DNA of 36,711 nt from Gemmataceae bacterium (GTDB lineage Bacteria > Planctomycetota > Planctomycetia > Gemmatales > Gemmataceae), in assembly GCA_019694755.1 (NCBI GenBank), contig JAIBBI010000039.1, positions 1-36,711 on the forward strand, given 5' to 3'. Below, one piece after another: positions 12,008 to 35,606 of this stretch (positions are counted from its first letter, which is position 1; each line of letters begins with the position of its first letter). The position numbers and the translations under genes were made by a program. The notes under the pieces are model-generated. The model saw nothing but the letters and a program-made list of their open reading frames with translations, was not told the origin of the DNA and did not search any database.

Positions 12008-12018
12008 ACGACCCTCGG

Positions 12019-13989
12019 TTAGCGACGCTTCGGAGAAGCGTTCGAGTATCGGCTGAGCGCCATCAGGGGGAAATAGAGCGAATAGTAGTGATATTTCAGA
12101 TAGAAGACCTTCGGGAATCCGGTGCCGGTAAACGGCTCCTCGGCCCAGTTCCCGTCGGATTGCTGCGTGTCCATGAGCCAGCGGGCGGCAGCATGTGCCT
12201 CGTCGGAACCCGCCTCGCCGGCGGCGACCAGCGCGAGCAGGCCCCACGCGGTCTGCGATGCAGTCGGAGCGCCGACGCCGATGTAGGCCGGGTCGTCGTA
12301 GCTCCGGCAGCTTTCGCCCCACGCGCCGGACGGCTGCTGGGCGCCCTGCAACCACGCGACCGCCCGGCGGACCATCGGGTCGCCCATGTCAAAGCCGATG
12401 GCCCTGAGCCCCTGAAGCACCTGCCACGTGCCGTAGAGGTAGTTCACGCCCCATCGGCCGGGCCAGCCGCAGTCGGGCGCCTGGGTCTTCCGCAGAAACG
12501 CGATCGCGCGATCGACCGCCTCGTGGCCGGGCCCGTAACCGAAATGGCCGAGTGCTTCGAGCACGCGTGCGGTAATGTCCGGGCAGCTCGGGTCGAGCAT
12601 CGCGTTGTGGTCGGCGAACGGGACCTTTTCGAGCACCTCGCGGTTGATGTCGCGGTCGAACGCGGCCCAGCCGCCGTCCTGATTCTGCAACGCAAAGAGC
12701 CAGCGGATCGCGCGGTCGCAGGCCGGTCCGTCGGCGGGAGCTTCGTCGGTGAAGAGCCCCGGCATCGCCGCCCGGCCCATCGGCGCATTGCGACTGCGGG
12801 CAAGAGCCATCAGGACCATCGCGGTGTCGTCGGTATCCGGATATTGGGCGTTGCGGTATTCGAAGAACCAGCCGCCCGGCTCGACCCCGCGGACAGACTT
12901 GCACCAGTCGCCCGGCCGGCGGACTTCCTTCTCCAGCAGCCAGTCGATGGACTTGCGGATGGCCGGGGTGTCGGGCGCGAGCCCGGCATCGGCCAACGCA
13001 ATCGTCGAGAGGGCCGTGTCCCAGACGGGGCTCAGGCACGGTTGCAGCCGGAGCGTGTCGCCGTCGTAAATCTTGAGGTCATCGAGTTGCTTGTGGGCCC
13101 ATTGCACCTCGGCGTGATCGTCCGGCACGCCGAGGCACCGAAGGGCGATCACCGTGTAAATCATCGGCGGAAAGATCGCGCCGACGCCGTCGGAGTCGTC
13201 GTAGTGCTCGCGCATCCAGGCGACCGCCTTGCCGAGCGCGTGCGTGCGGACCGGCCCGAGCATCCAGCCGAGCTTCTTGTAGAGCCAGTCGCACCCGATG
13301 AAGAAGTTGGTCCAGGAGAACGGCCAGGCGGTCGGCTTGGCGGCGAGACGCCAGGCGAACGGACGGCCGCGGAACAACTCGCGGATGCCGCGTTCGGCGG
13401 GAATCTCCGTCACCGGCTTGTGCGCCGAGACGATGCTGAGCGGCACGACGATCGTCCGCGTCCAGCTCGACATCGCGTACAGGTTTACGTACGCCCAGCG
13501 CGGCAGCAGCATCAGCTCGGGCGGCACCGACGCACAGCGACGGTACGGAAACTGCCCGAGCAACGCGAGGTAAAACCGTGTGAAGCTGTTGGATTGCTCG
13601 GCCCCGCCGAGCTGCACGACCACCTCGCGGGCGCGGGCCATGTGCGGGGCATCGGCCGGGTCGCCGGCGAGCTTCAATGCGAAGTAGGCTTTGACGCTGA
13701 CGCTGACGTCCGGCGGGCCGTCGGGGTAGTTCGACCAACCGCCCTCGGGCTGCTGCTGCGATCGGATGTAATTGGCGAGTTTGGGGAAGTCGGGGTCGTC
13801 GGTCCGACCCAGAAACGCGAGCAGGATCGCGTATTCACTCTCGAGAATGGTGTCGCCCTGGAGCTCGCCGCACCAGTGGCCGTCGGCTCGTTGCCGGGCG
13901 AGGAGCGCCTGCCGGGCCGCGTGTACCGCCGAGCGTTCGCGCGACATCCGGGCCGGCGCGGGGCGCAATGTCGTCGGCAATCCTTGCAC
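12019..13989 (-). CDS. shc: Squalene-hopene cyclase
   Basis: A 656-residue protein that cyclises squalene to hopene or hopanol at the membrane. The catalytic acid motif D-x-D-D-T-A is at 385-390 (DTDDTAMVLMAL). QW-type repeats are visible throughout (QQQPEGGWSNYPDG near 80, NQDGGWAAFDRD, APDCGWPGRWG, QPSGAWGES, SDGNWAEEPFTG). The end FYLKYHYYSLYFPLMALSRY is typical of the family. The start is GTG 13989, with GAGAGGGA 6 bases upstream. Length is normal for bacterial SHC. The gene sits between the hpnA-like and hpnH genes on the same strand. The squalene-forming genes hpnC, hpnD and hpnE are not in the window. Confidence 0.96.
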   Translation of the reverse strand: MQGLPTTLRPAPARMSRERSAVHAARQALLARQRADGHWCGELQGDTILESEYAILLAFLGRTDDPDFPKLANYIRSQQQPEGGWSNYPDGPPDVSVSVKAYFALKLAGDPADAPHMARAREVVVQLGGAEQSNSFTRFYLALLGQFPYRRCASVPPELMLLPRWAYVNLYAMSSWTRTIVVPLSIVSAHKPVTEIPAERGIRELFRGRPFAWRLAAKPTAWPFSWTNFFIGCDWLYKKLGWMLGPVRTHALGKAVAWMREHYDDSDGVGAIFPPMIYTVIALRCLGVPDDHAEVQWAHKQLDDLKIYDGDTLRLQPCLSPVWDTALSTIALADAGLAPDTPAIRKSIDWLLEKEVRRPGDWCKSVRGVEPGGWFFEYRNAQYPDTDDTAMVLMALARSRNAPMGRAAMPGLFTDEAPADGPACDRAIRWLFALQNQDGGWAAFDRDINREVLEKVPFADHNAMLDPSCPDITARVLEALGHFGYGPGHEAVDRAIAFLRKTQAPDCGWPGRWGVNYLYGTWQVLQGLRAIGFDMGDPMVRRAVAWLQGAQQPSGAWGESCRSYDDPAYIGVGAPTASQTAWGLLALVAAGEAGSDEAHAAARWLMDTQQSDGNWAEEPFTGTGFPKVFYLKYHYYSLYFPLMALSRYSNASPKRR

Positions 13990-19197: not shown

Positions 19198-21021
19198 ATG
19201 GCGATTCTCGAAATCTACAGTCGCGACAAGTCGATCTCCTGGCGGGTCCCGCTCACGACCAAACCGCTGCGCCTCGGGCGCATGCCGGGCCTCGCGGACA
19301 TCGTGACGCCGCCGGCCGACAACTTCATCTCCAAGGTCCACGCCACCATCGCCTTGCAGACCGACGGCCGGCTCCGCGTCGTCCGCAATGCCGAGGCTCA
19401 CAACCCGATCTATTCGTTGGAAGCCGGCAAGCCGCCCGCGACTGCCGACGACTTTCTGGTGGCAATGGGCGACAGCTTCCAGATCGGAAGCACCATCTTC
19501 CGCCTCTGCGACGACAGCCGCGACGGCACCGACACGGCCGACGATGCCGGCGTGGCGATGGCCAGCGAAAACACCTACGCCCCCGAGAAGGTCCGCGAGT
19601 TCCGCTTCGTCGACGCCAACCACCGCGTCGAAGCCCTGGCCGATTTGCCACAACTCATCCTCAGCACGCAGCATGAGCGGATGCTCGAGCAGTCCGTCCT
19701 CGACACGATGCTCAAGGGGATTCCCGAAGCTGATGTCGCGGCCATCGTCCGCCTCGACCCCGACTGCAAGGAGAACGACCCGCGGATCCAGGTGCTGGCT
19801 CAGAAAGCCCGCGAGACGCTCCGTGGCGAGGGCGACGGCCACAGGCCCAGTCGACGGCTGGTCCACAACGCGATCCGCTACCTGACGCCGACGCACCACG
19901 TCTGGCAATCCGGCGGCAGCGCGGACGCCGGCTACACGGTCACCGCCGGGATGGATTGGGCGCTGTGCGTGCCGATGCCCGATCACATCGCGCCGGACCT
20001 CGGGCTCTACGCCTCGGGCCGGCTCCGCTTCACGCTGCCCGGTGCGCAGGCCGACCCGAACAAGGACAAGCAGTATCAGGGCGACGTGAAATTCGCCCAA
20101 CTCACGGCCGACATCTACGCCTCGCTGCGCCGTACGATCGAGTTGACGAACCAGCAGCGGACCATCGCCCGGTTTCTGCCCATGCCGATCGTCGCTCAGA
20201 TGGGCCGGCACACCGGCGATTTCGACGAGTTCCTGCAGGCCCGCGAATGTGACATGACCGTACTCTTCTGCGACTTGCGCGGTTCGTGCAAGATCGCCGA
20301 GAGCGGGTCCGACGATTTGCAGAAGCTACTCGGTCGACTCAGCGACGCCCTGGCCGTTATGACCGACAACATCGTGAGCCGCTGGGGCGTGATCGGCGAC
20401 TTCCAGGGCGATGCCGCGATGGCCTTCTGGGGCTGGCCCGCGGGCGAACGGCAGATCGAGCGGGCGGCCGAGAGCGCGCTGCATATCCAACGGCGATTCC
20501 GCGACCTGACCGGGCGGACCGGCTCACTGCACGGCATGGCGTGCGGGATCGGACTGGCGCACGGCCGGGGCCTCGCCGGTCGACTCGGCACTCCCGACCA
20601 GTACAAAATCGGCGCGTTCGGCCCCGTGGTCAATCTCGCCAGCCGACTCGAATCGTTGACCAAGTATTTCCGCGTGGGAGTGCTGGTCGACGGCGCGTTT
20701 GCGGCCGGGCTGGGCCCCGACCTGCCGTGGTGCCGGACCCGGCGTGTGGCCCGGATTCGCCCCGCGGGCATGACCGTATCCGTCGACGTGTGCGAGTTGC
20801 TCCCGTCGGAAGCCGAGGCGGGGGCGATGCCCGAGCACGTCCGCCGGAAGTACGAGCGCGGGCTCGACGCCTTCATCGCCGGCCGTTGGACCGAGGCCAA
20901 CAACCTCCTCGCGACCATCCCGGCCGACGGCCCGACCGACGTGGTCCGGCAGTACATTGCGGAGCACGGCGGCACCGCGCCGGCCGGTTGGGACGGCACG
21001 ATCGTCATGGCCGGGAAATAA
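19198..21021 (+). CDS. FHA domain plus class III adenylate/guanylate cyclase
   Basis: A 607-residue soluble protein. An FHA-like domain occupies about 20-103 (LRLGRMPGLADIVTPPADNF, then ISKVHATI, the phosphothreonine-binding fold). A GAF-like region spans about 150-315, and a class III cyclase domain runs about 350-510. In the cyclase, Asp359 (VLFCDLRGS) and Asp405 (GDFQGDAAMAFWG) are the expected metal ligands and N479-x3-R483 (VNLASRLE) the transition-state pair. The usual substrate-specifying Lys before the second Asp is replaced (Asp401), so whether it makes cAMP or cGMP cannot be read. The C-terminus adds a helical, TPR-like stretch. FHA input implies control by Ser/Thr kinases. It is the only nucleotide cyclase seen here and lies close to a cNMP-binding redox protein. 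Confidence 0.88.
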   Translation: MAILEIYSRDKSISWRVPLTTKPLRLGRMPGLADIVTPPADNFISKVHATIALQTDGRLRVVRNAEAHNPIYSLEAGKPPATADDFLVAMGDSFQIGSTIFRLCDDSRDGTDTADDAGVAMASENTYAPEKVREFRFVDANHRVEALADLPQLILSTQHERMLEQSVLDTMLKGIPEADVAAIVRLDPDCKENDPRIQVLAQKARETLRGEGDGHRPSRRLVHNAIRYLTPTHHVWQSGGSADAGYTVTAGMDWALCVPMPDHIAPDLGLYASGRLRFTLPGAQADPNKDKQYQGDVKFAQLTADIYASLRRTIELTNQQRTIARFLPMPIVAQMGRHTGDFDEFLQARECDMTVLFCDLRGSCKIAESGSDDLQKLLGRLSDALAVMTDNIVSRWGVIGDFQGDAAMAFWGWPAGERQIERAAESALHIQRRFRDLTGRTGSLHGMACGIGLAHGRGLAGRLGTPDQYKIGAFGPVVNLASRLESLTKYFRVGVLVDGAFAAGLGPDLPWCRTRRVARIRPAGMTVSVDVCELLPSEAEAGAMPEHVRRKYERGLDAFIAGRWTEANNLLATIPADGPTDVVRQYIAEHGGTAPAGWDGTIVMAGK

Positions 21022-21099: not shown

Positions 21100-22350
21100 G
21101 TGCGGCGACTGTTGTCCCTCACCGCGTTGGCGGTAATGCTCGCCGTCTGCCCCGCGGCCGACCCGCCGGCCCGCCCGGGTTACGTCGGTGTCGGGGGCTG
21201 TGCCGCGTCCGGGTGCCACGGCGGGGGCGATCGCGTCGGCGTGGCCGGCAGCGAATTCACCACCTGGGCCACCGCCGACCCGCACCACAAGGCCTACGCC
21301 GTCCTCCTGACAGAAGCCGGCCAGCGGATGACCCGCCTTTATCGTCGAAACCCCGCCGCCGACGCCGGCACCGACGCGGCCTGCCTCGCCTGCCATGCCC
21401 CGCAGGCCAGCACCGACATCAGCCTGCGGACCGACGGCGTCGGCTGCGAAGCCTGTCACGGACCGGCCCAAAACTGGCGGACGACGCACTACCTCAACGA
21501 CTGGCGCAACCTCGACTCGGCCGCGAAGGCCAAACAGGGTTTCATCCCGACCCGCGACCTCACCGGCCGGATTCAGGCCTGCGTCGAGTGCCACGTCGGT
21601 AAGCCAGGCATGGAAGTCGATCACGACCTCATCGCTGCCGGGCACCCCCGGCTCACCTTCGAGTACGCGGCCTACCACGACATCTACCCGAAACACTGGG
21701 TCGAGCCGGCCGGGGCCAACTTCGCCGTCAAATCCTGGGCGGTCGGTCAGGTCATCACGGCCTCGGCCCAGACCCGACTGATCGCCGAGCACGCCAGGAG
21801 CAAGCGTGGCCCCGAACTCGCGGACCTGAACTGCTACAGTTGCCACCGCGGGCTGACCGGTGAAGCGACCGACACGACTACCCGCCCGCCGGGCGCGCTT
21901 TCGGCCAACGACTGGGCGTTCGCCGGGCTGGCATCGGTCGGCGAACTCGGCGGCGCGTTCGCGCCACCCTCACCGGTCGATGCTCAACCGCTGCTCAACC
22001 TCGTCGGCCAACCCGGCTCGAAGCCCGCGGACGTAGAACAAGCCGCGGCGAAACTCCAGACCGCACTCGATAAGTGGGCCGCCGAACTTGATAAAGTCCC
22101 CGCGGCAGACATCGCCGGCGCTCGCAACGTGTTTACCAGGCTGGCCGACACCCGTGCGACCAACTGGGACCGCGCCGCCCAGACCTACCTTGCGATGACC
22201 GCGTTGCACCGGTCGCTGCCCGCCTCGCCCGGCCGGCAGGCGTCACTGGGCCGGGTCCGCGACACGCTGCGATTCCCGCACGGCATCAACAGCCCGGCCG
22301 GCTTCTCGCTGAATGCGTTTCACTCCGCGATGAAGGGAGTCGCACCATGA
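21100..22350 (+). CDS. Pentaheme cytochrome c, c554-like, with one CX4CH site
   Basis: About 416 residues, exported. From GTG 21100 it has a signal peptide (MRRLLSLTALAVMLAVCPAA) and GGAG 7 bases upstream; an ATG at 21064 adds 12 residues and is the alternative. There are four CxxCH heme sites, at C95 (CLACH), C116 (CEACH), C161 (CVECH) and C245 (CYSCH), plus CAASGCH (C-x4-C-H) at C34. The spacing and the GVGCEACHGPAQNW block resemble cytochrome c554-type proteins. The last third has no heme site and is helical. Its stop overlaps the start of the next cytochrome gene (ATGA), and the two proteins share several blocks. A periplasmic electron carrier is likely; its partner is unknown. Confidence 0.88.
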   Translation: MRRLLSLTALAVMLAVCPAADPPARPGYVGVGGCAASGCHGGGDRVGVAGSEFTTWATADPHHKAYAVLLTEAGQRMTRLYRRNPAADAGTDAACLACHAPQASTDISLRTDGVGCEACHGPAQNWRTTHYLNDWRNLDSAAKAKQGFIPTRDLTGRIQACVECHVGKPGMEVDHDLIAAGHPRLTFEYAAYHDIYPKHWVEPAGANFAVKSWAVGQVITASAQTRLIAEHARSKRGPELADLNCYSCHRGLTGEATDTTTRPPGALSANDWAFAGLASVGELGGAFAPPSPVDAQPLLNLVGQPGSKPADVEQAAAKLQTALDKWAAELDKVPAADIAGARNVFTRLADTRATNWDRAAQTYLAMTALHRSLPASPGRQASLGRVRDTLRFPHGINSPAGFSLNAFHSAMKGVAP

Positions 22351-23774
22351 CGCGATTCCTCGCACTTACTCTTTCACTCGCCATACCGGCGCTTGCAGCA
22401 GCTACGCCGCCGGTCACGGGCGAAACGCAGATCGTCCACAGCGCGACCGATTGCCGGAAATGTCACGAGAAGGCCGACGCGGAGTATCGCGCCAACGGCG
22501 TCTACGACATTATCGTGCCCGATGCGGCCGCCATCTGGGCCGAGCGCGACCCGCACAGTAAGGCGGCACAGGTCCTCGACAAATCGAACCCGCTCGCCGC
22601 CCGCATGAGCGCGGCCCTCGGTTATGATGTCGCCCGGCAACCCGAGTGCCTCGCCTGCCACGCAGTCGATGTCACGCTGAACGCCCCGCTCGCCGAGAAG
22701 AAGTTCGCGTGGAAGCACGGCGTCGGCTGCGAGGGCTGCCACGGCTTCGCGGCCAAATGGTTCGGCGACCACACGCTGAAGACCTGGCGCGAGGTCGAGC
22801 CGGTCAAAAAGTCCGAGTTGGGCCTCGTCGATCTCCGCGACCCGATTACCCGAGCGGCCAAGTGTGCGACCTGCCACGTCGGCAACCTGGCCGAGGGCAA
22901 GTTCGTCACCCACGCCATGTACGCGGCCGGGCACCCGCCCCTATTGCCGCTCGAAGCCGCGACCTTCAACCGCGATCAACCCGCCCACTGGAATCCGCCG
23001 GAAGACGTGCCGTACATCAGGTCGCTGCCGCCCGAAAAGGCAGCAAAGTTCTTCCACGCCCCGCCCGGCCAACTGACCGCGCCGCGGTCTGTCGCCACCG
23101 GGGCCGTCGTGACCCTGCGCGAGTCGGCCAAGTTGCTGGCCGCCGACGCGGAGCGGGTCGCGAAGGACGGGGGCCTGCTCGACTTCGCGCATTTCGATTG
23201 CTTCGCCTGCCACCACGAACTTCAGGTTCCGAGCCACCGCCAGAAACGCGGCTACCCCGGCGTGCCCGGCCGACCGACCGTCCGCCAACTCCCGACCGAC
23301 CTCGTCGGCTCCGTGCTCGCCCACGCCAGGACCACCGGCACCCCGGACCGCCAGCCGGAGTTGAAAGCACGCCTCTCTGCACTCAATAGCGCGTTCGACC
23401 AGCGGGCGTTCGGTGAACCGGCCGCGATCGCCTCGGCCGCCCAGCAACTCGTGACCGCGTGCGACAACTGGCTCGGCGATGTACGACTCGTCCGTTACGA
23501 CACTGCCGGCCGCGATGCCCTGCTCGCCGCCATCCGCGCCACCGGCAACCCTGCCGGTTGGGATTACGACGCGGCGCAACTCCAAGCCTGGGCCGCGCGT
23601 GCGCTCATTGAAAAGTCGGTGGCTCCCGGCGTATGGAACAGCGTGCTGCCGACCGCCGGGATCGACCCGAAGTCGGGCTCGGTCGACACCGCCCTCAAGA
23701 GCCGGCTCCGCGTCCGTAACAGCTTCGACCCCGCCCGATTTGCGGAGGCGTGGCGCGGACCGGCGCCGAAGTAA
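22347..23774 (+). CDS. Pentaheme cytochrome c, paralogue of the preceding gene
   Basis: A 475-residue exported protein (signal peptide MTRFLALTLSLAIPALAAAT) with five CxxCH sites: C36 (CRKCH), C101 (CLACH), C128 (CEGCH), C173 (CATCH) and C285 (CFACH). The blocks GVGCEGCHGFAAKW and AAGHPPLLPLEAATF mirror GVGCEACHGPAQNW and AAGHPRLTFEYAAY of the gene before, so the pair arose by duplication. Here the first site is a normal CxxCH rather than CX4CH. The C-terminal 185 residues lack heme sites. The four-base ATGA overlap implies translational coupling. Likely periplasmic electron transfer, perhaps as a complex with its neighbour. Confidence 0.88.
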   Translation: MTRFLALTLSLAIPALAAATPPVTGETQIVHSATDCRKCHEKADAEYRANGVYDIIVPDAAAIWAERDPHSKAAQVLDKSNPLAARMSAALGYDVARQPECLACHAVDVTLNAPLAEKKFAWKHGVGCEGCHGFAAKWFGDHTLKTWREVEPVKKSELGLVDLRDPITRAAKCATCHVGNLAEGKFVTHAMYAAGHPPLLPLEAATFNRDQPAHWNPPEDVPYIRSLPPEKAAKFFHAPPGQLTAPRSVATGAVVTLRESAKLLAADAERVAKDGGLLDFAHFDCFACHHELQVPSHRQKRGYPGVPGRPTVRQLPTDLVGSVLAHARTTGTPDRQPELKARLSALNSAFDQRAFGEPAAIASAAQQLVTACDNWLGDVRLVRYDTAGRDALLAAIRATGNPAGWDYDAAQLQAWAARALIEKSVAPGVWNSVLPTAGIDPKSGSVDTALKSRLRVRNSFDPARFAEAWRGPAPK

Positions 23775-24637: not shown

Positions 24638-27600
24638 TTATTTCTTGAACTCCCGCGGTTCCGGGAACACGTCGCGGTCTTTCGGGTCGTCGGTGACGCC
24701 CCAGACTTTGCCGTCGCGCATGTAGAGCTTGCGCTGCTCCGCCTTGTTGAGGGGTCGCGCCCCGACCCGGCCGAACACCGCGATCTGGTTGCCCGTCTCG
24801 TCGACGGCCCGGTCGCGGTCCATGCCCTTTGCCACGTTCAGCGCGTGGCCACCGTGCGGGATCTTGTACGTTGCCACCAGTTTCGGGGTCGGTCTCGGGC
24901 TGAAGCCGTCGTTGCCGGGCGTCTCCGGCCCCGTCAGTTGCACGACCCGCAGTCCGTTCTTCCCGTCCGCCAAGTAGGCGAACTGGCTGACGTAGGTGAT
25001 GCCCAGCTTCACATCGTGGCAGTCGTTGATGCAGCCGCCGGCGTCGAATTGCTGATCGAACTTCGGGCGGTCGGGCACGGTGATGTCGAGGATGACCAGC
25101 CCGCGCGGGCCCGCCGCGACGTAGGCGTACGTCCGCGCCAGATAGATCGAGTGCACATCGTGCAACTTGTACACGGCCGCGGGTCGCGGGTGCGCGAGGT
25201 CGGACACGTCGAGGATCTTGATCCCCTCCTCGTCCCACGCGTACGCATACCGGAACTGCACCTGCACGCCGTGCGCGTGCTTCAGAAACTCGTCGCCGAT
25301 CAGGTGCGTGACCTTCGGGCACTTCGGGTCGTCGATGTCGACGACCACGAGGCCCTTGTGGCAGGTCACATAGGCGTAATGGCCGACGATGATGACATTG
25401 TTCGCCCCGTCGAGCAGGCCGTCGGGGTTGAAGGTCACTTCCCGTTTCAGGAAGTTGTTGGCCGGGTCGCCGTCGATGGCCGGGGCCGCGCCGATCAGGA
25501 TCAGCCCCTCGAACTTGTCGGCCACGTACAGGTAGCCGAAGAGCCCGTGGACTTTCTGCTCCTTGTTCTCCGGCGAGTGCGTGCGCGTGGGGTCCGGCGC
25601 GGGCGTACACGGGGCGGCCACCGCCATCGCGTGCTTCGTCTTCGCATAGAACTTCTGGCCGAACGGCGATACCGGCGCGGTGGTGATGCGCTCGCTGAAC
25701 GCCTTGTCGTCGATGAACGCGATGTCGTAGATGCGGACTCCCGCTTCGCCGCACGCCGCGTACAGGTACTCGCCGCGGTTCTGCACCTGCAGCACTTCAT
25801 GCTTCTTGAACGGCTTGAGCGTCTCGGTTGCCACGTCGGGGCCGGGGTGCTCGTGGGCGTGCTTCAGGAAGCCCAGCCGTTTCAGGTGCTCGGCAAACTT
25901 GCTGGGGAATGCCATGCTGTGCAGCGTGCTGCCGATCACGGCCTGCGGTTCCTCGCGCTCCGTGACCTCGACGCCGTTGAGCCCGTGGCTCCCGGCCGCG
26001 ACCCACGCATACCGGCCGACGAAATTCACGCTGTTAGTCCCGTGCATCAGCAACTGGGCCATCGTGGCATTGTTGTCGTTGCGGACCGACACGTGGCAGT
26101 CGGTACACTGCTTCGTCTCGAACCTGCCGGCCCCGCGTACCGTGTGCGGCACATTCGTGCTGAAAGCGAGACCCGAGAATCCTTCCGCGCTCACGGTCTG
26201 CTGCTGCACGTAGATCGATTCGCGGTTCTGGTTGTACGAGCCGACGTGGATGGCGCAGCTCGAGCGCGAGGGCCCGATGCGGTTGCCCGTGGCATCGCCG
26301 TCGCGGGCCAGCATGTACACGTCGTCGCGGAGCGTCTGGAAGCAGTACGACGTGTAGTTGCGCGACACGTTGCCGTCCCAGTGCAGGCCCGGCATCTTCA
26401 TGTTCGCCCGCTGCGGCAGGTGGCAGCCGAAGCACGACGGGTTCCAGCTCGAATGGCACGCGATGCAGTGCATGTTGCTGTTGTCGTGGGCGTAGTCGCA
26501 GTTGCCGGGCGTGTCGCCCCACGCCAGCTTGCCGCCCTCGAAGCGCACGGTCTTCGCCATGCGCGATTTCTCGTTGTAATGGCGATGGGCGGGGTCGAGC
26601 GTGTCGCGGACCTGCTTCACCTCCCAGCGGACGCCCTTCTCCACCATGCTGTTCTGAAACACCTGCTCACCGACGACCTCGAACCGCGGCTTGCCGAAGG
26701 GCGTGCGCATCTGCCGGAGGTCCCGGCCGCCCTCGGCCGACGACGTGTACGAGGCCGGCCCGCTGGTCTTGAGCGTTGCCCGGGCCTTCGCGCTGCCGTG
26801 GCAGTCGATGCACTGGATCTCGCACGCCGCGCGGACTTCCATGTGCAGCCGGCCGTTGCCGTGAACGTCCTGCACGAAGTGGCAGTCGACGCAGTGCATC
26901 CCCTTCTCGAGGTGGATGTCCATCATGTGCACGGGCAGGCCGTCGCGCGACTTCTTGAACTCCTCCTCCGCCGCCCGCAGCTTTTCCAGGTCGTCGGCAT
27001 CGCGGTACAGTTCCTTCGACCGCTCGGGCACCTTCACGGCCGCCTGGAGCATCTCCGGCTTCACCTGGCTGACCGGCTCATCGCGATGATCGAGCAGCCG
27101 ACCCTGCTTGTCGTGCTTGAATACGGCGCGGAACACCCAGCCGTGGCTGTGGAAGTCGGCGAACTGGGTCTTGTCCATCTTCCCATTCAGGTCGGTGAGC
27201 TTGGCGAGGAACTGTGGGTCGGACCAGTTGCCGCGGAGGGCCGCCTCGTCCGGGTTCCGCATCTGCACGCGGACGAACTCCTGGGCCGAGTGCTTCTTCT
27301 CCTTCTCCGGGTACATGTACTTGCCTTCGGTCTCCTCATCCCACCACATGTAGCCGCAGTAGCTGTTCATCACTGTCGTGCCGGGGTGAATGTGGCAGAC
27401 CATGCACTGACTCGTCGGGATGCCGCTCGTAAACCGGTGGTCGATCGGGTGGCCCGGCTCCGTCTTGCAGATGGCCGGGTCGCCGTTGGCGGTCGCCTTG
27501 CCTTCATTACCGTGCTTCGCGAACGGGCCCGAGTGCACGCTCGAACGGTCGTTGGCATACACGACATGGCACGCGCTGCACCCGGAACTGCGGTAATCGC

Positions 27601-28522
27601 CCGGGTGATCGTTGGTGCCGAGGAAGTTGAGCGTGTCGAACAGCCGGGTCTTGTTGAGGCTCACCAGCACCGGGTCGGTGCGGTTGCCGGTGCCGAGTCC
27701 GCGGTCGGACAGGCGCGTCCGTGGCCGGCCGGGCTCTTCGGTGCGCTCCGGCAGGCCAATCTCGTTGCGGAACCGGCCCCCGCGCTCGAAGATCCGCAGG
27801 ATATTGCCCGGCTGCGACATCTCGAATCGCGGCAGCGGGTCGAGGAACGGGACGACCCCGCGCTTCATCTCCTCGTCCGTGGGCGGCGGCACAGTCAGCG
27901 CCCGCAACGGCGTGCCGTCCATCGCATAGAACTCGCCGTGCCGGGCCCGCTTGTACGGGACCGACCCGTTGTTGTAGAGGGCCGCACCCCAGAGCATCGC
28001 CCCGCTGGTCATGATCTGCTTGCGGTTGGTGTGGACTTCCTTCGGGTGACAGCCGACGGTCCCGCAACTGATATGGGCGACGCGGAGGTCGCCGGGGTTC
28101 ACGAAGCGGATGTACTCGGGTGACTCGTGGTTGAGCAGCGTCCAGGTGCGCTCGGGGTTCGCGGCCGAGGGCCAGGCCTCGGGAAACCGGCTGGCGACGT
28201 GGGCGGTCAGCTTGTCCGCGCTGTTCGGGTCGCCGCCGTGGCAGTCGGTGCAGCCGATCCGGAGCGTGTCCTTGTAATGCGGGTCGTGGGAGTTTTGGTG
28301 GCAGACGATGCAGCCCGCGCTCTTGGTGTGGGCCTCGGCCGCGGTCTGCTTGAGCAACTCGACGCCAACGAGTTCGGCAGGAATGGGGAACGGGTCGCCG
28401 GCGGGCGTGGGCGTGCGGTTGTCGGCCGGGGGCGCGTAGTACGGCGTCTGCCGGACCTGAGCCGTCGCCATCCAGCCGGCCGCCGCCAACACTGCGATCG
28501 AGAGTATCCACTTTCCACGCAC
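24638..28522 (-). CDS. Large multiheme cytochrome c with C-terminal LVIVD-type propeller
   Basis: About 1,294 residues from GTG 28522, chosen because GGAGGG lies 6 bases upstream and a signal peptide (RGKWILSIAVLAAAGWMATA) begins there; ATGs at 28543 and 28585 are alternatives. There are nine CxxCH sites (about 71, 91, 315, 373, 544, 571, 686, 697, 806) and one CGTVGCH (C-x4-C-H, about 153). From about 835 to 1210 come repeats ending in GLxVVDI or GLVILDITVP (RYAWVAAGSHGL, EYLYAACGEAGVRIYDI, HYAYVTCHKGLVVVDI, RTYAYVAAGPRGLVILDI), typical of LVIVD propeller blades. A CINDCH (C-x3-C-H) lies within the propeller at about 1164. It follows the porin gene on the same strand after 124 bases. A periplasmic or surface electron-transfer role is inferred; no enzyme family is certain. 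Confidence 0.88.
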   Translation of the reverse strand: MRGKWILSIAVLAAAGWMATAQVRQTPYYAPPADNRTPTPAGDPFPIPAELVGVELLKQTAAEAHTKSAGCIVCHQNSHDPHYKDTLRIGCTDCHGGDPNSADKLTAHVASRFPEAWPSAANPERTWTLLNHESPEYIRFVNPGDLRVAHISCGTVGCHPKEVHTNRKQIMTSGAMLWGAALYNNGSVPYKRARHGEFYAMDGTPLRALTVPPPTDEEMKRGVVPFLDPLPRFEMSQPGNILRIFERGGRFRNEIGLPERTEEPGRPRTRLSDRGLGTGNRTDPVLVSLNKTRLFDTLNFLGTNDHPGDYRSSGCSACHVVYANDRSSVHSGPFAKHGNEGKATANGDPAICKTEPGHPIDHRFTSGIPTSQCMVCHIHPGTTVMNSYCGYMWWDEETEGKYMYPEKEKKHSAQEFVRVQMRNPDEAALRGNWSDPQFLAKLTDLNGKMDKTQFADFHSHGWVFRAVFKHDKQGRLLDHRDEPVSQVKPEMLQAAVKVPERSKELYRDADDLEKLRAAEEEFKKSRDGLPVHMMDIHLEKGMHCVDCHFVQDVHGNGRLHMEVRAACEIQCIDCHGSAKARATLKTSGPASYTSSAEGGRDLRQMRTPFGKPRFEVVGEQVFQNSMVEKGVRWEVKQVRDTLDPAHRHYNEKSRMAKTVRFEGGKLAWGDTPGNCDYAHDNSNMHCIACHSSWNPSCFGCHLPQRANMKMPGLHWDGNVSRNYTSYCFQTLRDDVYMLARDGDATGNRIGPSRSSCAIHVGSYNQNRESIYVQQQTVSAEGFSGLAFSTNVPHTVRGAGRFETKQCTDCHVSVRNDNNATMAQLLMHGTNSVNFVGRYAWVAAGSHGLNGVEVTEREEPQAVIGSTLHSMAFPSKFAEHLKRLGFLKHAHEHPGPDVATETLKPFKKHEVLQVQNRGEYLYAACGEAGVRIYDIAFIDDKAFSERITTAPVSPFGQKFYAKTKHAMAVAAPCTPAPDPTRTHSPENKEQKVHGLFGYLYVADKFEGLILIGAAPAIDGDPANNFLKREVTFNPDGLLDGANNVIIVGHYAYVTCHKGLVVVDIDDPKCPKVTHLIGDEFLKHAHGVQVQFRYAYAWDEEGIKILDVSDLAHPRPAAVYKLHDVHSIYLARTYAYVAAGPRGLVILDITVPDRPKFDQQFDAGGCINDCHDVKLGITYVSQFAYLADGKNGLRVVQLTGPETPGNDGFSPRPTPKLVATYKIPHGGHALNVAKGMDRDRAVDETGNQIAVFGRVGARPLNKAEQRKLYMRDGKVWGVTDDPKDRDVFPEPREFKK

Positions 28523-28646
28523 GGCCGGCCCTCCGTGGCCCATCTCGGCGCGCAGCCTCGGCGCCCGCAAGTCACGCCCTGTCATACCCGCGATGCGTCA
28601 ATCTGGGCAAGGTCAAGAAACTTGGCGAGGTAACCGCCTGGCTACA

Positions 28647-29723
28647 TCAGAAATCCAGCCCGAACCGGAATGTCACCGCTTCCATGCTCAGGTCGCTGAC
28701 TTTGCGGGTCCGCTTGCCTTCCGCGAAGTCGTCGAGGAACGAAACGCTTTCGACCTGGTTGAACCAGTGGCTGAGTTCGTAGCCGAGGCTGAAGTGGAAG
28801 TTCCGCCGGGTCCACGTCAGGCCGGTGGCGATATCAAGCACCGGCACCACCTTCGTAAAGTTGTCGCTGATGTCGGTGACGAGTACGTTGCCGGCAAAAT
28901 TGGTTTCGGTGTTGTGCAGGCAGTAGTCCGCGACGAGCAGGCTGCCCCGGCCGCGGGCGTACGCCGACCACGCGCCGCCGAGCCGCCAGCGGCCCTCGCC
29001 GCCGATCGACAGGCCGCCCGCGTCCATGGTCAGGCGCTGGCGGGCCGACGCCTGGTTGGCGTCGAGGCCGTTGTAAGTCGCCTCGAGCACCTGGCCGATG
29101 TTCGCCGTTCGTGAGCCTATGAACATGCGGGCGTCGAAGGTCTCGTCGAGGTGGACGGTCTTGCCGAAGTCGATGTCGAAGACGTTGAAATTGAAGCTGG
29201 AGAACGCCGTGGCCGTGCTGGCCGTGTCGATGACACCGGGCCGGGTGAGCGTCGGGTACAGCAGCCCGCCCTGGGGCGCGCCGATGCTCGCGCTGTCCTG
29301 GCTGTAGGCGTACATGTAAGTGAAGCTGATATCTGTCGTGCCGCCCCGGGGCCGCCAAGTGAAGCCGACGCGGAACCCGCTGTCGGTCCGCCAGTCGAGC
29401 CCGGCCGTGTTGCCCTGCGGGATGAAGTCGTTCCGGGGATCCACGATCGCGTAGTCGAGGTCGCGGCGCGTGGGCCGGAGCAGCAGGTATTCGAACGACG
29501 CCACGAACGGCAGCACCGGCTCATTCGCGGGCACGATCTGCACGCTCGGCGGGGGCATCACCTCCGGCGTGACGTCCACGACGCCGGGGGGATACGCGGA
29601 GGCCGGCGGCGGCAGGTGCGTGCCACCGGGCACTGGCGCGACCGGCGGCGCGGCCACGGGCGATTGGGCCGTCGCCGAACCCACGGACATCAGTATCGCA
29701 GCAGCAAACCAGCGGCGCAGCAT
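28647..29723 (-). CDS. Outer-membrane beta-barrel porin (Lpg1974-like)
   Basis: 358 residues from ATG 29723, preceded by a GGAGGGTGGGAG stretch. A signal peptide (MLRRWFAAAILMSVGSATAQ) leads to a Pro-rich linker (about 21-65). A barrel of alternating strands follows (FVASFEYLLLRPTRRDLDYA, GFRVGFTWRPRGGTTDISFT, FHFSLGYELSHWF) and ends TFRFGLDF, with the terminal Phe expected of outer-membrane proteins recognised by BamA. It resembles the planctomycete Lpg1974-type pore proteins. It is followed on the same strand by the 1,294-residue multiheme cytochrome. The upstream gene on the other strand begins the b-type cytochrome operon. A pore for electron-transfer proteins is possible but not shown. 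Confidence 0.8.
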   Translation of the reverse strand: MLRRWFAAAILMSVGSATAQSPVAAPPVAPVPGGTHLPPPASAYPPGVVDVTPEVMPPPSVQIVPANEPVLPFVASFEYLLLRPTRRDLDYAIVDPRNDFIPQGNTAGLDWRTDSGFRVGFTWRPRGGTTDISFTYMYAYSQDSASIGAPQGGLLYPTLTRPGVIDTASTATAFSSFNFNVFDIDFGKTVHLDETFDARMFIGSRTANIGQVLEATYNGLDANQASARQRLTMDAGGLSIGGEGRWRLGGAWSAYARGRGSLLVADYCLHNTETNFAGNVLVTDISDNFTKVVPVLDIATGLTWTRRNFHFSLGYELSHWFNQVESVSFLDDFAEGKRTRKVSDLSMEAVTFRFGLDF

Positions 29724-29785
29724 CTCCCACCCTCCGGCAATCAACGCGGGGACATACCGGCCCCGGACCCCGCCCACAAGGTCAA

Positions 29786-29815
29786 TTGATTTCACCCCGG
29801 GCAAAACAGTACAAT
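29786..29815 (+). promoter_or_regulatory. Sigma-70-like promoter for the b-cytochrome operon
   Basis: TTGATT (29786-29791), an 18-base spacer and TACAAT (29810-29815) give a good -35/-10 pair. Transcription would start near 29822, ahead of a GGAG at 29830-29833. This places the gene start downstream of 29815 and argues against the TTG at 29786, which would lie in the -35 box. Confidence 0.5.
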
Positions 29816-29845
29816 TCGCCCTATCCCCCGGAGCCAGCAACTACT

Positions 29846-30916
29846 TTGATCATCGACGCCGGCCATATTCGCTGGATCGCGGGCACCGGACTCGCCGCCG
29901 TCGCGTCGTCGATCCTCTACGTCTGGGCCGACCGCACGACGCCCGGCGGCCTCCGCGGCGGCACCACCGCGGGCCTTTGGTTCGGCATTGCCGGCACCCT
30001 GCTCATGGCCTTCGCCGGCGCGCTCTCCGCACTCCGCAAGGTCCCCGCGTGGTGGTGGATCGGCTCGCGCAAGGCCTGGCTCAAGGGCCACATCTGGCTC
30101 GGCCTGCTCAGCGTGCTCCTGATCCTGTGCCATTCCGGATTCCGGTTCGGCGGCCCACTCGAGCGCGTGCTCTGGGTCGTCTTTGCCACCATCGTTATCA
30201 GCGGCATCGTGGGCCTGCTGCTCCAGCAATCGCTGCCCGGGTTGCTGGCCCGCCGGGTCCACGGCGAAGTCTCGTTCGAGCAGTTGCCCCACTACTGCGG
30301 CGTGCTCCGCGGCCGGGCGGATGATCTTTGCGACGCGCTCAAGCTAGCAATCTCCCCGGCCGACGACGCCGCCGGCCGGTTCTATTCCGCGTACGACGAC
30401 GACGTCCGCCCGTTTTTCGACGTGCCCGCCCCGCGCCGCACGACCTTCATCGACGAGCATGCCATCCGCGTCTGGTTCGACCGCGTCGGCGAAGCCCTGC
30501 GGATCGGCGCGGCCGGCGACGCGGAAGCCGCGGCCGCGCTCGTCAATGATCTCCGCCCCACCATCGACCCGGCCAAGGCGAAAGAACTGCTTCCCCGGCT
30601 CGACAAACTGGTCTCGGGCATGGATCGGCTGTTTGATACCGTGAATACCGCGGGCCTGCCCGCAGCCGCCCAGGCATCGTTTACTGAACTGCGGACATTG
30701 GCGACCGGCGCGCCCGAGGTGGTGCCGGCCGTGATCAGTCAGGCGGCGTCGGCTTGGATGGCCGCGATCGAATCGCTGGTCACCGAACGGTCGGGCCTGC
30801 GGTTCCAGGAGCGGGTCCACCGCTGGCTGCACGGCTGGCTGCTGATCCACGTGCCGCTCTCGGCCGCGCTCCTCGCTCTCACACTCGCCCACATCGTGAT
30901 GTCGCTTTACTACTAG
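29846..30916 (+). CDS. Diheme b-type membrane cytochrome (candidate quinol-side subunit)
   Basis: 356 residues from TTG 29846 (GGAG 12 bases upstream; start uncertain). About five membrane helices: roughly 8-27, 40-60, 82-98, 107-128 and 333-354. The third carries H82 and H96 and the last carries H335 and H349, each pair being H-x13-H, the spacing that places two b hemes in cytochrome b and related quinone-reactive proteins. Between helices 4 and 5 lies a helical soluble domain of about 200 residues (DDLCDALKLA to VTERSGLRFQ). I know no exact family. It is the first gene of a unit with the decaheme and Fe-S genes, 11 bases before the former. Confidence 0.75.
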   Translation: MIIDAGHIRWIAGTGLAAVASSILYVWADRTTPGGLRGGTTAGLWFGIAGTLLMAFAGALSALRKVPAWWWIGSRKAWLKGHIWLGLLSVLLILCHSGFRFGGPLERVLWVVFATIVISGIVGLLLQQSLPGLLARRVHGEVSFEQLPHYCGVLRGRADDLCDALKLAISPADDAAGRFYSAYDDDVRPFFDVPAPRRTTFIDEHAIRVWFDRVGEALRIGAAGDAEAAAALVNDLRPTIDPAKAKELLPRLDKLVSGMDRLFDTVNTAGLPAAAQASFTELRTLATGAPEVVPAVISQAASAWMAAIESLVTERSGLRFQERVHRWLHGWLLIHVPLSAALLALTLAHIVMSLYY

Positions 30917-30927
30917 CGGACCGCACC

Positions 30928-32406
30928 ATGGATCCCGCCCGCGACCCGAAGACGCTGACCGACCGGCTGGAAACCGATTATTACCAGCGGCCGGGCACGC
31001 TGCGGCGCGGCAAATGGTTCTGGTCCGTCGTCGCCCTCGTCGTCTCGACTGTGCTCGTCGGCGCGCTCATCGCCATGCCGCGCTGGCACTCGACCTTCCA
31101 GGCCGGGCCGGTCTCCTCGGCCCATGCGGTCTTCGGTGCGGACTGCTCGCAGTGCCACGACAACCACTTCGCGACCGCCGCCCGGTTGATTCCCGGAATC
31201 ACCTCGAGCTCCGTCAGCGATGAGAAATGCCTGAACTGTCACGGGGCCGGGCGACACGACCCGCACCAGACCACCAACACGAGCATGTCCGGCCACTTCG
31301 CCGCCAAGTGCGTGAGCTGTCACATGGAGCACCGCGGGCCGCACCTCGCCCGGCTCAGCGATCAGACCTGCGTTCGCTGCCATGCCGACATCAAGACCGA
31401 CGACGGCAAGACCCGTTACGCGGGCCAGATCCAGCACTTTGCCCACGGTCATCCGGAGTTCGGTTCGTGGCGGGGCAAGCCGGTCACCGACCCGGCCGGC
31501 GGCAAGTTCTTTTTCAACCACGAGCGGCACCTGAACCTGGCGAACGACCTGAAAGACCTCCCGCCCGACCGCCGGCCCGCCCTCGCCGCCGAGTTCGCCA
31601 GGATGCGCGACCTCGACTGTGCGTACTGCCACACGACCGATGCCGACGGCAAGCGAATGCAGCCGATCCGGTACGACGCGCATTGTGCCGCATGTCACCC
31701 GCTCACCGTCGCGCCGCAGCCGGCCGGGATCTGGCCCGACGACGTAGCAGCGAAGTTCCTCGCGGAGCCGTTGAAACACCCCGGCCCGGATCAATCGCCG
31801 GAGCTGATCCGCTCGCAACTGCTGGCCCGCTACCTGAGCGTTGCTGACAAGGCCAAGTCGACGGCAGACCGGCCGATAGTGCAACCCAACGTGTTGCAGC
31901 ATGCCGATGAAGCCGTCGCCGCGGACCGCGAACGGCTCGCCCTCGATCGCACCCGGTTGACCGAGGGGCAACTCTTCGACCGCAAAGGCGTCGGCTGCAA
32001 CATGTGCCATGCGAAGACGGGGACGACTCCGGACGGATTGCCGACGCTCGCCGCACCGTACCAGCAGCGTGGCCGGTGGCGCGACGAGATTGCCAGTTGG
32101 CCCGACCCCGAGCGGTTCCGGTCGCCGGCCTATGCCGACGCCGCCAACCGCTGGTTCCCGCTGGCGACCTTCGACCACCGGGCCCATCGTACTTACAAGT
32201 GCACCGACTGCCATGCGGCCCGGACGAGTTCGAAGACCGAAGAAGTGCTGATGCCCAACCACGCGAAGTGTGCCGAGTGTCACAACGGCGGCAGACAGTC
32301 GGCCCGCAGCGACTGCCTGACCTGCCATACTTATCACGACCGCAGTCAGGAACGCGCGCCCGCCACACTCACCCGACCGGCGGAACCCGCCAGGGGTGGA
32401 CCATGA
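30928..32406 (+). CDS. Membrane-anchored decaheme cytochrome c
   Basis: 492 residues from ATG 30928, the first codon after the b-type cytochrome gene (a frame reaching 30754 overlaps that gene). One N-terminal membrane segment (FWSVVALVVSTVLVGALIAM, about 31-50) anchors it, with the rest periplasmic. Ten CxxCH sites: C73 (CSQCH), C101, C128, C148, C231, C253, C357, C425, C448 and C463 (CLTCH). Many free His lie between them (HHAH-type ligands for bis-His hemes). This resembles NapC/NrfB-like electron-transfer cytochromes in form, but not in known sequence. The stop overlaps the next start by ATGA. It probably takes electrons from the b-type subunit or passes them to outer-membrane partners. 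Confidence 0.87.
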   Translation: MDPARDPKTLTDRLETDYYQRPGTLRRGKWFWSVVALVVSTVLVGALIAMPRWHSTFQAGPVSSAHAVFGADCSQCHDNHFATAARLIPGITSSSVSDEKCLNCHGAGRHDPHQTTNTSMSGHFAAKCVSCHMEHRGPHLARLSDQTCVRCHADIKTDDGKTRYAGQIQHFAHGHPEFGSWRGKPVTDPAGGKFFFNHERHLNLANDLKDLPPDRRPALAAEFARMRDLDCAYCHTTDADGKRMQPIRYDAHCAACHPLTVAPQPAGIWPDDVAAKFLAEPLKHPGPDQSPELIRSQLLARYLSVADKAKSTADRPIVQPNVLQHADEAVAADRERLALDRTRLTEGQLFDRKGVGCNMCHAKTGTTPDGLPTLAAPYQQRGRWRDEIASWPDPERFRSPAYADAANRWFPLATFDHRAHRTYKCTDCHAARTSSKTEEVLMPNHAKCAECHNGGRQSARSDCLTCHTYHDRSQERAPATLTRPAEPARGGP

Positions 32407-35400
32407 GCGAGAAGAAGCCCGACCCGCCGAAGAAGGACCAGCCGCAGGGCCCGCCGGTCGACGTCTCCTGGGCGGACATATCGCTCTCGGAGATGCTGCG
32501 CGAGCGGTCGGAAGACGCGTCGAAGGTCGCCGACCCGCCCGCGCCGAAGAAGCCGGACACCACGCCGGTGCTGTTCGGCGACGATTCCGTCGACGGCGAG
32601 AAGAAGCCCGCGCCGCCGCCGGCGAAGAAGCCGGACACCGCGCCGATCGTTTTCGGGGACGATTCGGCTCCGGGCGAGACGAAGCCCGTCGAAACGCCCG
32701 CCGCAAAGCGGGCGACGCCGATGATCGTCGGCGATGATTCGTTCGACGGCGCACCGATCAGCACGGGGCAGAAGTCCCCGGCCGCCCCGAAGCCGCCCGC
32801 GAAGAAACCGCTGCCGGGCGGTAATCAGCCGTCGTTCGCCGAGTTGGATCTCGAAAAAGTCCTGACGCCGAAGCCGTCGCCGACCAAAGCCCGGCCGCGC
32901 GACGACATGATGTCGCTGCTCGACATTTCGCTTTCCGACTCCGTGCTCCAGCAGATCGCGAAGCGGGCCCCGGCGAAACGGCCCGACGAGTCGAAGCCGC
33001 GCGATGACATGTCGTTTGCCGACTTCGCGCTGCAGGAGATCGAGCAGAAGCAGGAGCTGAACGCGGCCGCCGCGATCGCCGCGCCGCCCGCACCCGCGCC
33101 GGCCCCGCCGCCGGAGAAGCCGGCCGAGAAGGTGAAGGAAGTCGCCGTCAACCGCGAGGCGATGCTCGAGCCCCGGCGGAAAGACGTGCAGATTCCGGTC
33201 GACAAGCTGGTCGCTTTCCGCGACTGCATCGGCCTGTTCAGCCAGCTCAAGAACAAGCCCAGTGTCGAGAAGTGGCCCGGCACGCTGGTGCTCCGCCGGT
33301 ATCACCCCGGCGAGCCGGTCTTCCGCCAGGGCGAGGCGGGCATGTCGGCGTTTTACGTGCTCACGGCCGCCGACGAAGACCGCCTGCGGGCCGCCAAGCT
33401 GATCCCGCCGCAGCGGACCATGATCGACCTCGAAACCTCCGCCGAGGCGCTGGCCGTCCACCTCGCGATCGCCCGGCCCGTCGTGAAGCAGGAATCGTGG
33501 GTCGATCGGCTGGCCAACTATTTCGTCAAGAAGCCCGAGGTGAAGGCCCAGCCGAAGTTCATCCCGATCGACGCGCCGGTGGGCGTCGAGTACGAATCGC
33601 GGCGGGCCGTGCTCTCGGCCGGCGACCTGTTCGGCGAGATGAGCTGCCTGTACCGCACGCCGCGCTCGGCTACCGTCGTCGCGGAGCGCGATTGCTATGT
33701 CGTCGAGCTCCTGCGCAACGTCCTCGATCAGCTCAAGAAGGACCCGAAGTTCAAGGAGGAGATGGACAAGAAGTACAAGGAGCGCGTCTTCGGCCTTCAG
33801 GTACTCAACCTGCCGATTTTCCGCGGGTTGAACGAGGAACTCATCACCTGGCTGCGCGACAAGGCGACCTTGAAGAGCTACCGCGCCGGGCAGGTAGTCT
33901 GCGACGAACACGACCGCCCCGACGACATGATGATCATCCGCGGCGGGCTCGTGAAAGTCTGCCAGGGGGTGAGCAACCTTTACGGCCGGTCGGACGTGCT
34001 GAGCTGGACCGGTCTCGCGGCCAAGCTCGTCGCCGCGGCCGAGGGCACGCCGCTGGCCCGCGTCCGTGCGACGCTCGGCCCCTCGGCCGACGAACGCCTG
34101 GCCAACGAGGCGCACGATCCGACCGCCCTATCGGCCGACCAGTGGCAGGAGGTGCTCTACGAGCTGAATGATCTCGTCAAAGGCCCGCCATTGGGCGAGA
34201 CCGATGCCGCACTCGCAGGCCCGCAATACAAGCTGCTGCTCGCCACGCTGCCCAAGGCGGCCAAGGACCGGTCCGAGTCCGACGCCCGCCGGCTCAACCG
34301 CACATTCCTCGACGAGTTGCTCGGCGGCGCGGTGCGGGCGAAACGGCTCTCCGCGGGGCCCGAGTCGATCCTGCAATACGCCAGCCGCGGCGACCTGATC
34401 GGCGAGATGGGCGTGGCCATGAACCGCCCCCGCAGCGCGTCGTGCCTCGCTTACACTCACCCGCGGTTCGGCCAGGCGCTCGAAGACGTGAAGAGTACGG
34501 AGGAAGAAACCGTCGAGGTGGTCCTGCTCCCGGCCGCGGCATTTCGCGAGCTCCTCGACAAGCCCGGCGCGGAATCCGTCCGCGCCCACGTCGAGCAACT
34601 GATTTCGACGCGACAGCGGTCGGACCTGCTCCGGCAGAAACTCGCGCCCGGCTCCGATTCCGGCCGGCGGCTCTCGCCCGAGTTCGAGAAGCTCGGCCTG
34701 ATTCAGGGCCAGAAGCTGATGCTCATCGACCTCGACCGCTGCACGCGCTGCGACGAGTGCGTCCGCGCGTGTGCCGACGTGCATTCCGACGGCCGGAGCC
34801 GGCTGTTCCTCGAGGGCCCGCGGTTCGAGCGGTATCTCGTGCCGATCACCTGCCGGTCGTGCCTCGACCCGGTGTGCCTCATCGGCTGCCCGGTCGGCAG
34901 CATCCACCGCGGCGACAATAAGCAGATCACCATCGAAGATTGGTGCATCGGCTGCGGCCTGTGCGCCCGGCAGTGTCCGTACGGATCGATCCTGCTGCAC
35001 GACATCGGCCTGATCGCCAACGGGGCGCGGGAGTGGTCGTTCAACTCGGGCGAGGTGGATCCGACGAAGCGGCCGGGCATCGCCCACTGGCCCACGGCGG
35101 CCGCACCCTTTCGCCTTTCGCGCGATTTCCGATCGCGGGTGAAGCCGTCGACCGTCTACTGGTTCGCCCGCACGTTCGACGTGCCGGCCGACCTGCTCCG
35201 CGACCACGTCTTCGAGATGGAGTTGACCGGACTCGACCCCGCGGCCCAGATCTACATCAACGGCACGGAGGTCGCCACCAAGGAGCGGCTGAAGAAGGAC
35301 AAGCGGGCGTTCCCGATCGCGGAGCCCGAGAAGTTCCTGCGGGCAAAGAACAACATGATCCTGGTTCGCGTCTCGCCGAAGGAGGACGAAGCCGGGGTGA

Positions 35401-35606
35401 TCTTCGACCTGCGGCTGGACGCTTCGCCGCGGCCGGTCCGGGCCGAGGGCGCGGCCATCGAGTACACGGAGAAGGCCGTCACGAGCCGGGCCGTCGTGTG
35501 CGACCTGTGCAGTAACCTGCCCGGCCAGGTCCCCAGTTGCGTGAACGCCTGCCCGCACGACGCGGCCATGCGCGTCGACGCCCGCACTGGGTTCCCGACG
35601 CGGTAG
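32403..35606 (+). CDS. Two cNMP-binding domains fused to a four-cluster [4Fe-4S] protein
   Basis: 1,067 residues from ATG 32403, GGGGTGG just upstream; no signal peptide, so cytoplasmic. A disordered Pro/Lys-rich N-terminus (1-250) contains repeats. CNB domain A (about 268-445) has GDLFGEMSCLYRTPRSATVV at 408-427, and domain B (about 466-720) has GDLIGEMGVAMNRPRSASCL at 663-682, both with the phosphate-binding Arg; each contains a long insertion. Residues 780-858 and 1033-1050 hold 16 Cys in four groups (C780/783/786/790, C817/820/825/829, C848/851/854/858, C1033/1036/1046/1050), the pattern of DmsB/NrfC/HybA-type subunits with four clusters. A beta-sandwich of the GH2 sugar-binding type (about 900-1010) sits between the third and fourth groups. 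Probably passes electrons to or from the membrane b-cytochrome under cyclic-nucleotide control (inference). Confidence 0.88.
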   Translation: MSEKKPDPPKKDQPQGPPVDVSWADISLSEMLRERSEDASKVADPPAPKKPDTTPVLFGDDSVDGEKKPAPPPAKKPDTAPIVFGDDSAPGETKPVETPAAKRATPMIVGDDSFDGAPISTGQKSPAAPKPPAKKPLPGGNQPSFAELDLEKVLTPKPSPTKARPRDDMMSLLDISLSDSVLQQIAKRAPAKRPDESKPRDDMSFADFALQEIEQKQELNAAAAIAAPPAPAPAPPPEKPAEKVKEVAVNREAMLEPRRKDVQIPVDKLVAFRDCIGLFSQLKNKPSVEKWPGTLVLRRYHPGEPVFRQGEAGMSAFYVLTAADEDRLRAAKLIPPQRTMIDLETSAEALAVHLAIARPVVKQESWVDRLANYFVKKPEVKAQPKFIPIDAPVGVEYESRRAVLSAGDLFGEMSCLYRTPRSATVVAERDCYVVELLRNVLDQLKKDPKFKEEMDKKYKERVFGLQVLNLPIFRGLNEELITWLRDKATLKSYRAGQVVCDEHDRPDDMMIIRGGLVKVCQGVSNLYGRSDVLSWTGLAAKLVAAAEGTPLARVRATLGPSADERLANEAHDPTALSADQWQEVLYELNDLVKGPPLGETDAALAGPQYKLLLATLPKAAKDRSESDARRLNRTFLDELLGGAVRAKRLSAGPESILQYASRGDLIGEMGVAMNRPRSASCLAYTHPRFGQALEDVKSTEEETVEVVLLPAAAFRELLDKPGAESVRAHVEQLISTRQRSDLLRQKLAPGSDSGRRLSPEFEKLGLIQGQKLMLIDLDRCTRCDECVRACADVHSDGRSRLFLEGPRFERYLVPITCRSCLDPVCLIGCPVGSIHRGDNKQITIEDWCIGCGLCARQCPYGSILLHDIGLIANGAREWSFNSGEVDPTKRPGIAHWPTAAAPFRLSRDFRSRVKPSTVYWFARTFDVPADLLRDHVFEMELTGLDPAAQIYINGTEVATKERLKKDKRAFPIAEPEKFLRAKNNMILVRVSPKEDEAGVIFDLRLDASPRPVRAEGAAIEYTEKAVTSRAVVCDLCSNLPGQVPSCVNACPHDAAMRVDARTGFPTR

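Follow-up and report, generated by a model that had tools for sequence, protein, structure and literature searches.

What might a bacterium use a protein for that carries two cyclic nucleotide-binding (CNB) domains and an iron-sulfur electron-transfer module on one chain? This question is raised by a gene of a Gemmataceae bacterium located in the window, the stretch of 36,711 nucleotides analysed here, which is a complete contig from a draft genome of 5.6 Mb. An earlier note on this DNA had described a second-messenger sensor fused directly to an electron-transfer subunit, and one open reading frame indeed encodes both. It starts with the ATG at position 32403 and ends with the stop codon at 35606 on the plus strand, exactly as annotated before. 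The start codon overlaps the upstream gene for a decahaem cytochrome by ATGA.

Domain composition of the fusion protein

According to the ORF, Pfam matches and motif counts, the protein of 1067 amino acids consists of two CNB domains followed by four [4Fe-4S]-type sites. It matched PF00027 (cNMP_binding) in three stretches with 85.6 bits (cut-off 27.5), and Fer4-type families of Pfam exceeded their cut-offs as well. The motif of the GExxxxxxxPRSA type, which had been reported for each CNB domain, is literally present twice. In CNB1 the phosphate-binding cassette is GDLFGEMSCLYRTPRSATV with the motif GEMSCLYRTPRSA (33621 to 33677, plus strand), and in CNB2 it is GDLIGEMGVAMNRPRSAS with the motif GEMGVAMNRPRSA (34389 to 34442, plus strand). 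The GE...PRSA residues are intact in both cassettes, which carry Glu and Arg and closely fit the classical cNMP consensus. A CRP/FNR transcription factor was ruled out, because no HTH family was detected in the Pfam scan and the CNB part is followed by an Fe-S module instead.

The protein possesses 22 Cys residues, and 16 of these are arranged in four ferredoxin-type groups, so that the four cluster sites previously claimed could be located in the ORF. These are group I, CTRCDECVRAC (34740 to 34772; Cys 780, 783, 786 and 790), group II, CRSCLDPVCLIGC (34851 to 34889; Cys 817, 820, 825 and 829), group III, CIGCGLCARQC (34944 to 34976; Cys 848, 851, 854 and 858), and group IV, CDLCSNLPGQVPSCVNAC (35499 to 35552; Cys 1033, 1036, 1046 and 1050), all on the plus strand.

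Structure models were compared by Foldseek, and the tandem CNB fold matched the regulatory subunit of protein kinase A (PKA-R; 1cx4) across both domains with an E-value of 9.8e-13, at a target TM-score of only 0.42 and with long inserts in between. The matches also included guanosine- and inosine-bound PKA-R of trypanosomes. In the AlphaFold models, of a set that left out the closest orthologues, the CNB domains were confident and the iron-sulfur part was of low confidence.

Insertions and additional segments

The long insertions that had been noticed in both CNB domains are real. The one in CNB1 comprises 83 amino acids and precedes the cassette (33363 to 33611, plus strand); comparison with orthologues showed that it occurs nearly family-wide with a median length of 65 amino acids. 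The insertion of 141 amino acids in CNB2 (33960 to 34382, plus strand) is restricted to the clade of the window, in which most close orthologues possess 120 to 290 amino acids at this position; elsewhere the median is 14.

Two further segments had been overlooked. The first is a low-complexity N-terminal extension of about 250 amino acids (32403 to 33161, plus strand), which, as the starts of the orthologues show, is absent from close orthologues. A false start of the ORF was ruled out by codon statistics, since the log-odds of 0.293 per codon, in comparison to 0.307 in the body of the protein, identify the extension as coding. It contains repeated acidic motifs of the FGDDS type and short DISLS-like segments, which are possibly docking motifs. 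The second is the spacer of about 173 amino acids between Cys groups III and IV (34980 to 35498, plus strand), which has a length of only about 33 amino acids in relatives outside the clade. A weak Pfam match to a Glyco_hydro_2_N2-like domain (PF22666, E-value 2.3e-4, below the cut-off) suggests that this insert before group IV may form a galactose-binding-like beta-sandwich in the window's clade.

Genes neighbouring the fusion gene

Directly upstream of the fusion gene, a c-type cytochrome with ten CxxCH motifs and one N-terminal transmembrane anchor is encoded (30928 to 32406, plus strand; Pfam and motif count). It is preceded by the gene for a membrane protein (29846 to 30916, plus strand), which matched no family of Pfam or NCBIfam and for which the PDB fold search revealed no credible solved relative. 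Its residues H82/H96 and H335/H349 are invariant, form two HX13H pairs and are located inside predicted helices (residues 75-97 and 295-355). Two spaced His pairs in helices are the usual pattern of transmembrane dihaem cytochromes b, as in bc1 and NOX/FRE proteins. On the basis of His spacing and predicted helices only, the membrane subunit is a putative dihaem cytochrome b outside the known families. The position of the fusion gene next to genes for this putative haem protein of the membrane and for the decahaem cytochrome suggests a respiratory complex, and we infer from these sequences that the fusion protein serves, on the cytoplasmic side, as the iron-sulfur subunit of a complex that transfers electrons across the membrane.

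Further upstream, a porin-like outer-membrane protein (Legionella_OMP in Pfam; 28647 to 29840, minus strand) and a nine-haem cytochrome with LVIVD repeats (24638 to 28585, minus strand; Pfam, NCBIfam and CxxCH count) are encoded. The latter resembles ExtM, known from selenite and tellurite reduction, although it reached only 59 bits against a cut-off of 800 and is fused to the LVIVD repeats. Since its gene adjoins the porin-like gene, both proteins possibly form an outer-membrane electron conduit. Relatives of this cytochrome recur beside the fusion gene in Acidobacteriota and Planctomycetota. Two c554-like cytochromes, identified by Pfam and CxxCH counts, are located upstream of these genes, one with five CxxCH motifs (22347 to 23774, plus strand) and one tetrahaem protein with four (21136 to 22350, plus strand). 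Beyond this region, the minus strand carries a hopanoid cluster (10988-13947), in which a squalene-hopene cyclase gene lies beside a radical SAM/DUF3463 gene (HpnH-like).

Distribution of the family and NADH-linked relatives

The earlier note knew of no described protein of this kind and had suggested a survey of the fusion across genomes. This survey was carried out and revealed hundreds of relatives in several phyla, so that the fusion is not a singular oddity. A pattern search of one genome collection gave 551 hits, of which 457 code for relatives of the query. The best 80 of the 457 belong to Planctomycetota, Acidobacteriota, Rokubacteria/Methylomirabilota and a few other labels, and all 80 possess both the CNB and the Fe-S parts. 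A one-off fusion or an assembly artefact was ruled out by these numbers, and a chance fusion is excluded because the combination is conserved across phyla.

In the order Gemmatales, about fifteen close orthologues with the same protein layout were found. Most of them are encoded in an operon of a dihaem-b-like protein, a decahaem cytochrome and the fusion protein, together with c554-like cytochromes; four orthologues (L065, L069, L070 and L073) have neither the cytochrome b nor the decahaem gene as a neighbour. Considering 180 loci from Planctomycetota, Acidobacteriota and others, the genes for cytochrome b and the decahaem cytochrome adjoin the fusion gene at most of them. The partner cytochromes of the family contain 10-17 haems, and at some loci (L129, L131, L132, L134-L142 and L145-L147) 15-17 CxxCH motifs are present instead of ten.

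Most Acidobacteriota and many planctomycetes encode a longer form, in which a NuoG-like N-terminus precedes the CNB domains and a NuoEF gene is located nearby; both assignments were confirmed by Pfam. The order at most Acidobacteriota loci is a divergent gene for a tetrahaem c554, NuoEF, the NuoG-N/CNB/CNB/4xFeS protein, the dihaem cytochrome b and the decahaem cytochrome c, often followed on the opposite strand by an ExtM/LVIVD multihaem cytochrome. The NuoG-like module and the NuoEF neighbour therefore suggest NAD(H) as the electron-exchange partner of the typical complex. NuoG-type N-terminal 2Fe-2S and 4Fe-4S domains were not found by Pfam in the window's protein, which represents a version without the NADH module; other NuoF-like genes are present elsewhere in this genome. 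At one locus (L106), the four-cluster module is encoded by a separate gene of 246 amino acids directly downstream of the NuoG-CNB gene, and the fusion can therefore be split. Within 1 kb after this separate gene, a match to class III cyclases was detected.

Conservation of the cassettes and occurrence of class III cyclases

In 49 diverse members, the segment FGE...PRSATV is invariant except for a few columns, and in a second set (n=25, Arg-less clade not included) G122, E123, R132 and A134 of CNB1 are invariant. Few residues of the protein are conserved as strongly as the phosphate-binding Glu and Arg, and in most members the cassette comes close to the cluster Cys residues in its conservation. 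If one CNB domain is degenerate, the other generally keeps its cassette. The family f2 (L098, L108, L111, L113, L114, L116 and L117) has lost the cassette of CNB2 and kept that of CNB1, and in its genomes a divergently encoded class III cyclase gene adjoins the fusion gene. The reverse was observed in NADH-linked paralogues of Gemmataceae (L078, L155 and L157), which have lost the cassette of CNB1 and kept that of CNB2.

A non-conserved phosphate-binding Arg had been named as a result that would speak against ligand sensing. The Arg is conserved in almost all members, but one clade (L134, L138-L145, L147 and L240-L260) has lost it in both CNB domains and has kept the CNB fold, so that the domains may also have a structural role. 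In the order of this clade, 96 of 121 genomes contain no class III cyclase; some genomes of the clade possess one to eight. Within the two main survey sets, every cyclase-free genome encodes an Arg-less fusion protein, and one incomplete genome (G542) was later found as an exception. A strong correlation between the losses of Arg and cyclase was dropped when more genomes showed essentially one clade; the link reflects essentially one evolutionary event and is only supportive.

Class III cyclases are enriched close to the fusion genes. Within 10 kb, such a gene was detected at 15 of 101 loci (1.57 expected) and at none of the other 86. Eight of the 15 loci belong to f2 and are not independent, which is allowed for in the count by family (7 of 32 vs 1.44 expected; P about 2e-4). 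More loci of Acidobacteriota and Rokubacteria also have a cyclase nearby (L166, L179, L190, L197 and L213), and sensor domains of the FHA, GAF or CHASE2 type are present in several of the neighbouring cyclases. The cyclase of the window (19198 to 21021, plus strand), one of two class III cyclases in the genome, has kept the catalytic Asp, Asp, Asn and Arg and is encoded 11.4 kb upstream of the fusion gene.

Proposed function and alternative explanations

To judge from sequence comparisons, cAMP or cGMP from a class III cyclase probably binds to one or both CNB domains and switches electron transfer of the respiratory complex, although considerable doubt is appropriate. The Fe-S clusters, haem b and haem c would conduct electrons between periplasmic multihaem cytochromes and a carrier in the cytoplasm, which would be NAD(H) in the case of the relatives. 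The cyclase would provide the cyclic nucleotide, and a PKA-R-like hinge movement would open or close electron transfer into the four-cluster module. In the NADH-linked relatives, the CNB pair is located between the donor-side clusters and this module, and a hinge at this position could align or separate the clusters. It is conceivable, and nearly an even question to us, that these proteins belong to an undescribed class of respiratory complexes that is widespread among Planctomycetota, Acidobacteriota and Rokubacteria. In such complexes, a PKA-R-like CNB pair would be inserted into the iron-sulfur wire itself and, on binding cAMP or cGMP supplied by a dedicated cyclase, would directly gate the electrons passing between periplasmic multihaem cytochromes and NAD(H) or a different carrier of the cytoplasm.

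The CNB domains might bind a cyclic nucleotide and yet leave the rate of electron transfer itself unaffected, governing instead how the complex is assembled, where it is localised or how it docks to partners. Their position between the NuoG-like and the four-cluster modules of the relatives could serve such docking, and the long clade-specific CNB inserts and the beta-sandwich-like insert resemble interaction surfaces. We nevertheless consider this unlikely, because the donor and acceptor clusters of the NADH-linked relatives share one chain, and their docking needs no switch. It is still less probable that the CNB domains are structural or vestigial spacers in an ordinary electron-transfer subunit. 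The Arg-less clade retains the module, and single CNB domains are degenerate in other groups, which would fit this explanation; on the other hand, groups in which one CNB is degenerate have retained the other in intact form, the cassette of most members is hardly less conserved than the cluster Cys residues, cyclases cluster near the fusion genes, and the Arg-less clade is mostly without cyclases.

The CNB fold has been reused for other ligands, for example in divergent CRP/FNR proteins and in trypanosome PKA-R, and the Foldseek list contains the nucleoside-bound forms of the latter. That the domains sense another nucleoside or a redox ligand is nonetheless very improbable in our view, as both cassettes are close to the classical Glu/Arg consensus and class III cyclases occur nearby above chance. 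Control of electron transfer by a cyclic nucleotide is hence the explanation we prefer. In bacteria, cyclic nucleotides are chiefly known as signals that act on transcription. If the proposed gating is correct, respiration would be under fast, post-translational control of a second messenger through a sensor in the electron carrier itself, and a role would be suggested for a gene cluster that is common in soil and groundwater bacteria and contains a membrane subunit of no known family. The idea can be tested in a cultured isolate, since Granulicella aggregans possesses the NADH-linked form (L203).

Comparison with known systems

No published description of the CNB/four-cluster fusion was found in the open-access papers searched, which is weak evidence, and to our knowledge the combination fits no described complex. 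The parts are of known kinds; the family is seemingly undescribed. In the family profile, matches to the tandem CNB domains of PKA-R and cGMP-dependent protein kinase (PKG) and to Fe-S subunits of the HycB3/HycB4/FHL type occur in one polypeptide.

The earlier note had called the iron-sulfur part DmsB/NrfC-type, which is correct for the Cys pattern, as subunits of the DmsB/NrfC/HycB type possess the same 16 Cys residues in four groups and in the same order. The scores, in contrast, are far below the NCBIfam cut-offs (DmsB 38.6 against 214.1 bits; NrfC 32 against 377.6), and the best solved matches are HycB3, HycB4, subunit 2 of formate hydrogenlyase and ArrB-type subunits. Unlike these DmsB/NrfC systems, the fusion protein has two CNB domains and is encoded together with a dihaem-b-like protein and a decahaem cytochrome; Pfam and NCBIfam revealed neither an NrfD/DmsC membrane subunit nor a molybdenum subunit among the operon partners. 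Orthology to DmsB or NrfC was ruled out by scores and partners.

With the peripheral arm of Complex I (NuoEFG), the relatives share the adjoining NuoEF-type gene and the NuoG-like N-terminus, both of which the window's version lacks. In contrast to NuoEFG, their chain continues into the CNB and four-cluster domains, and cytochrome b and the decahaem cytochrome are co-encoded. PKA-R and PKG have the same tandem CNB domains with PKA-R-like cassettes (Foldseek E-value about 1e-12), whereas the fusion protein is bacterial, is joined to an iron-sulfur module and not to kinase control, and carries long inserts before the cassettes. In mycobacteria, a CNB domain is fused to an acetyltransferase in Rv0998 and MSMEG_5458, which are under direct allosteric control by cAMP (PMC5861322). 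These enzymes have no redox function, unlike the fusion protein, and represent a bacterial precedent for a CNB domain that controls its fused effector.
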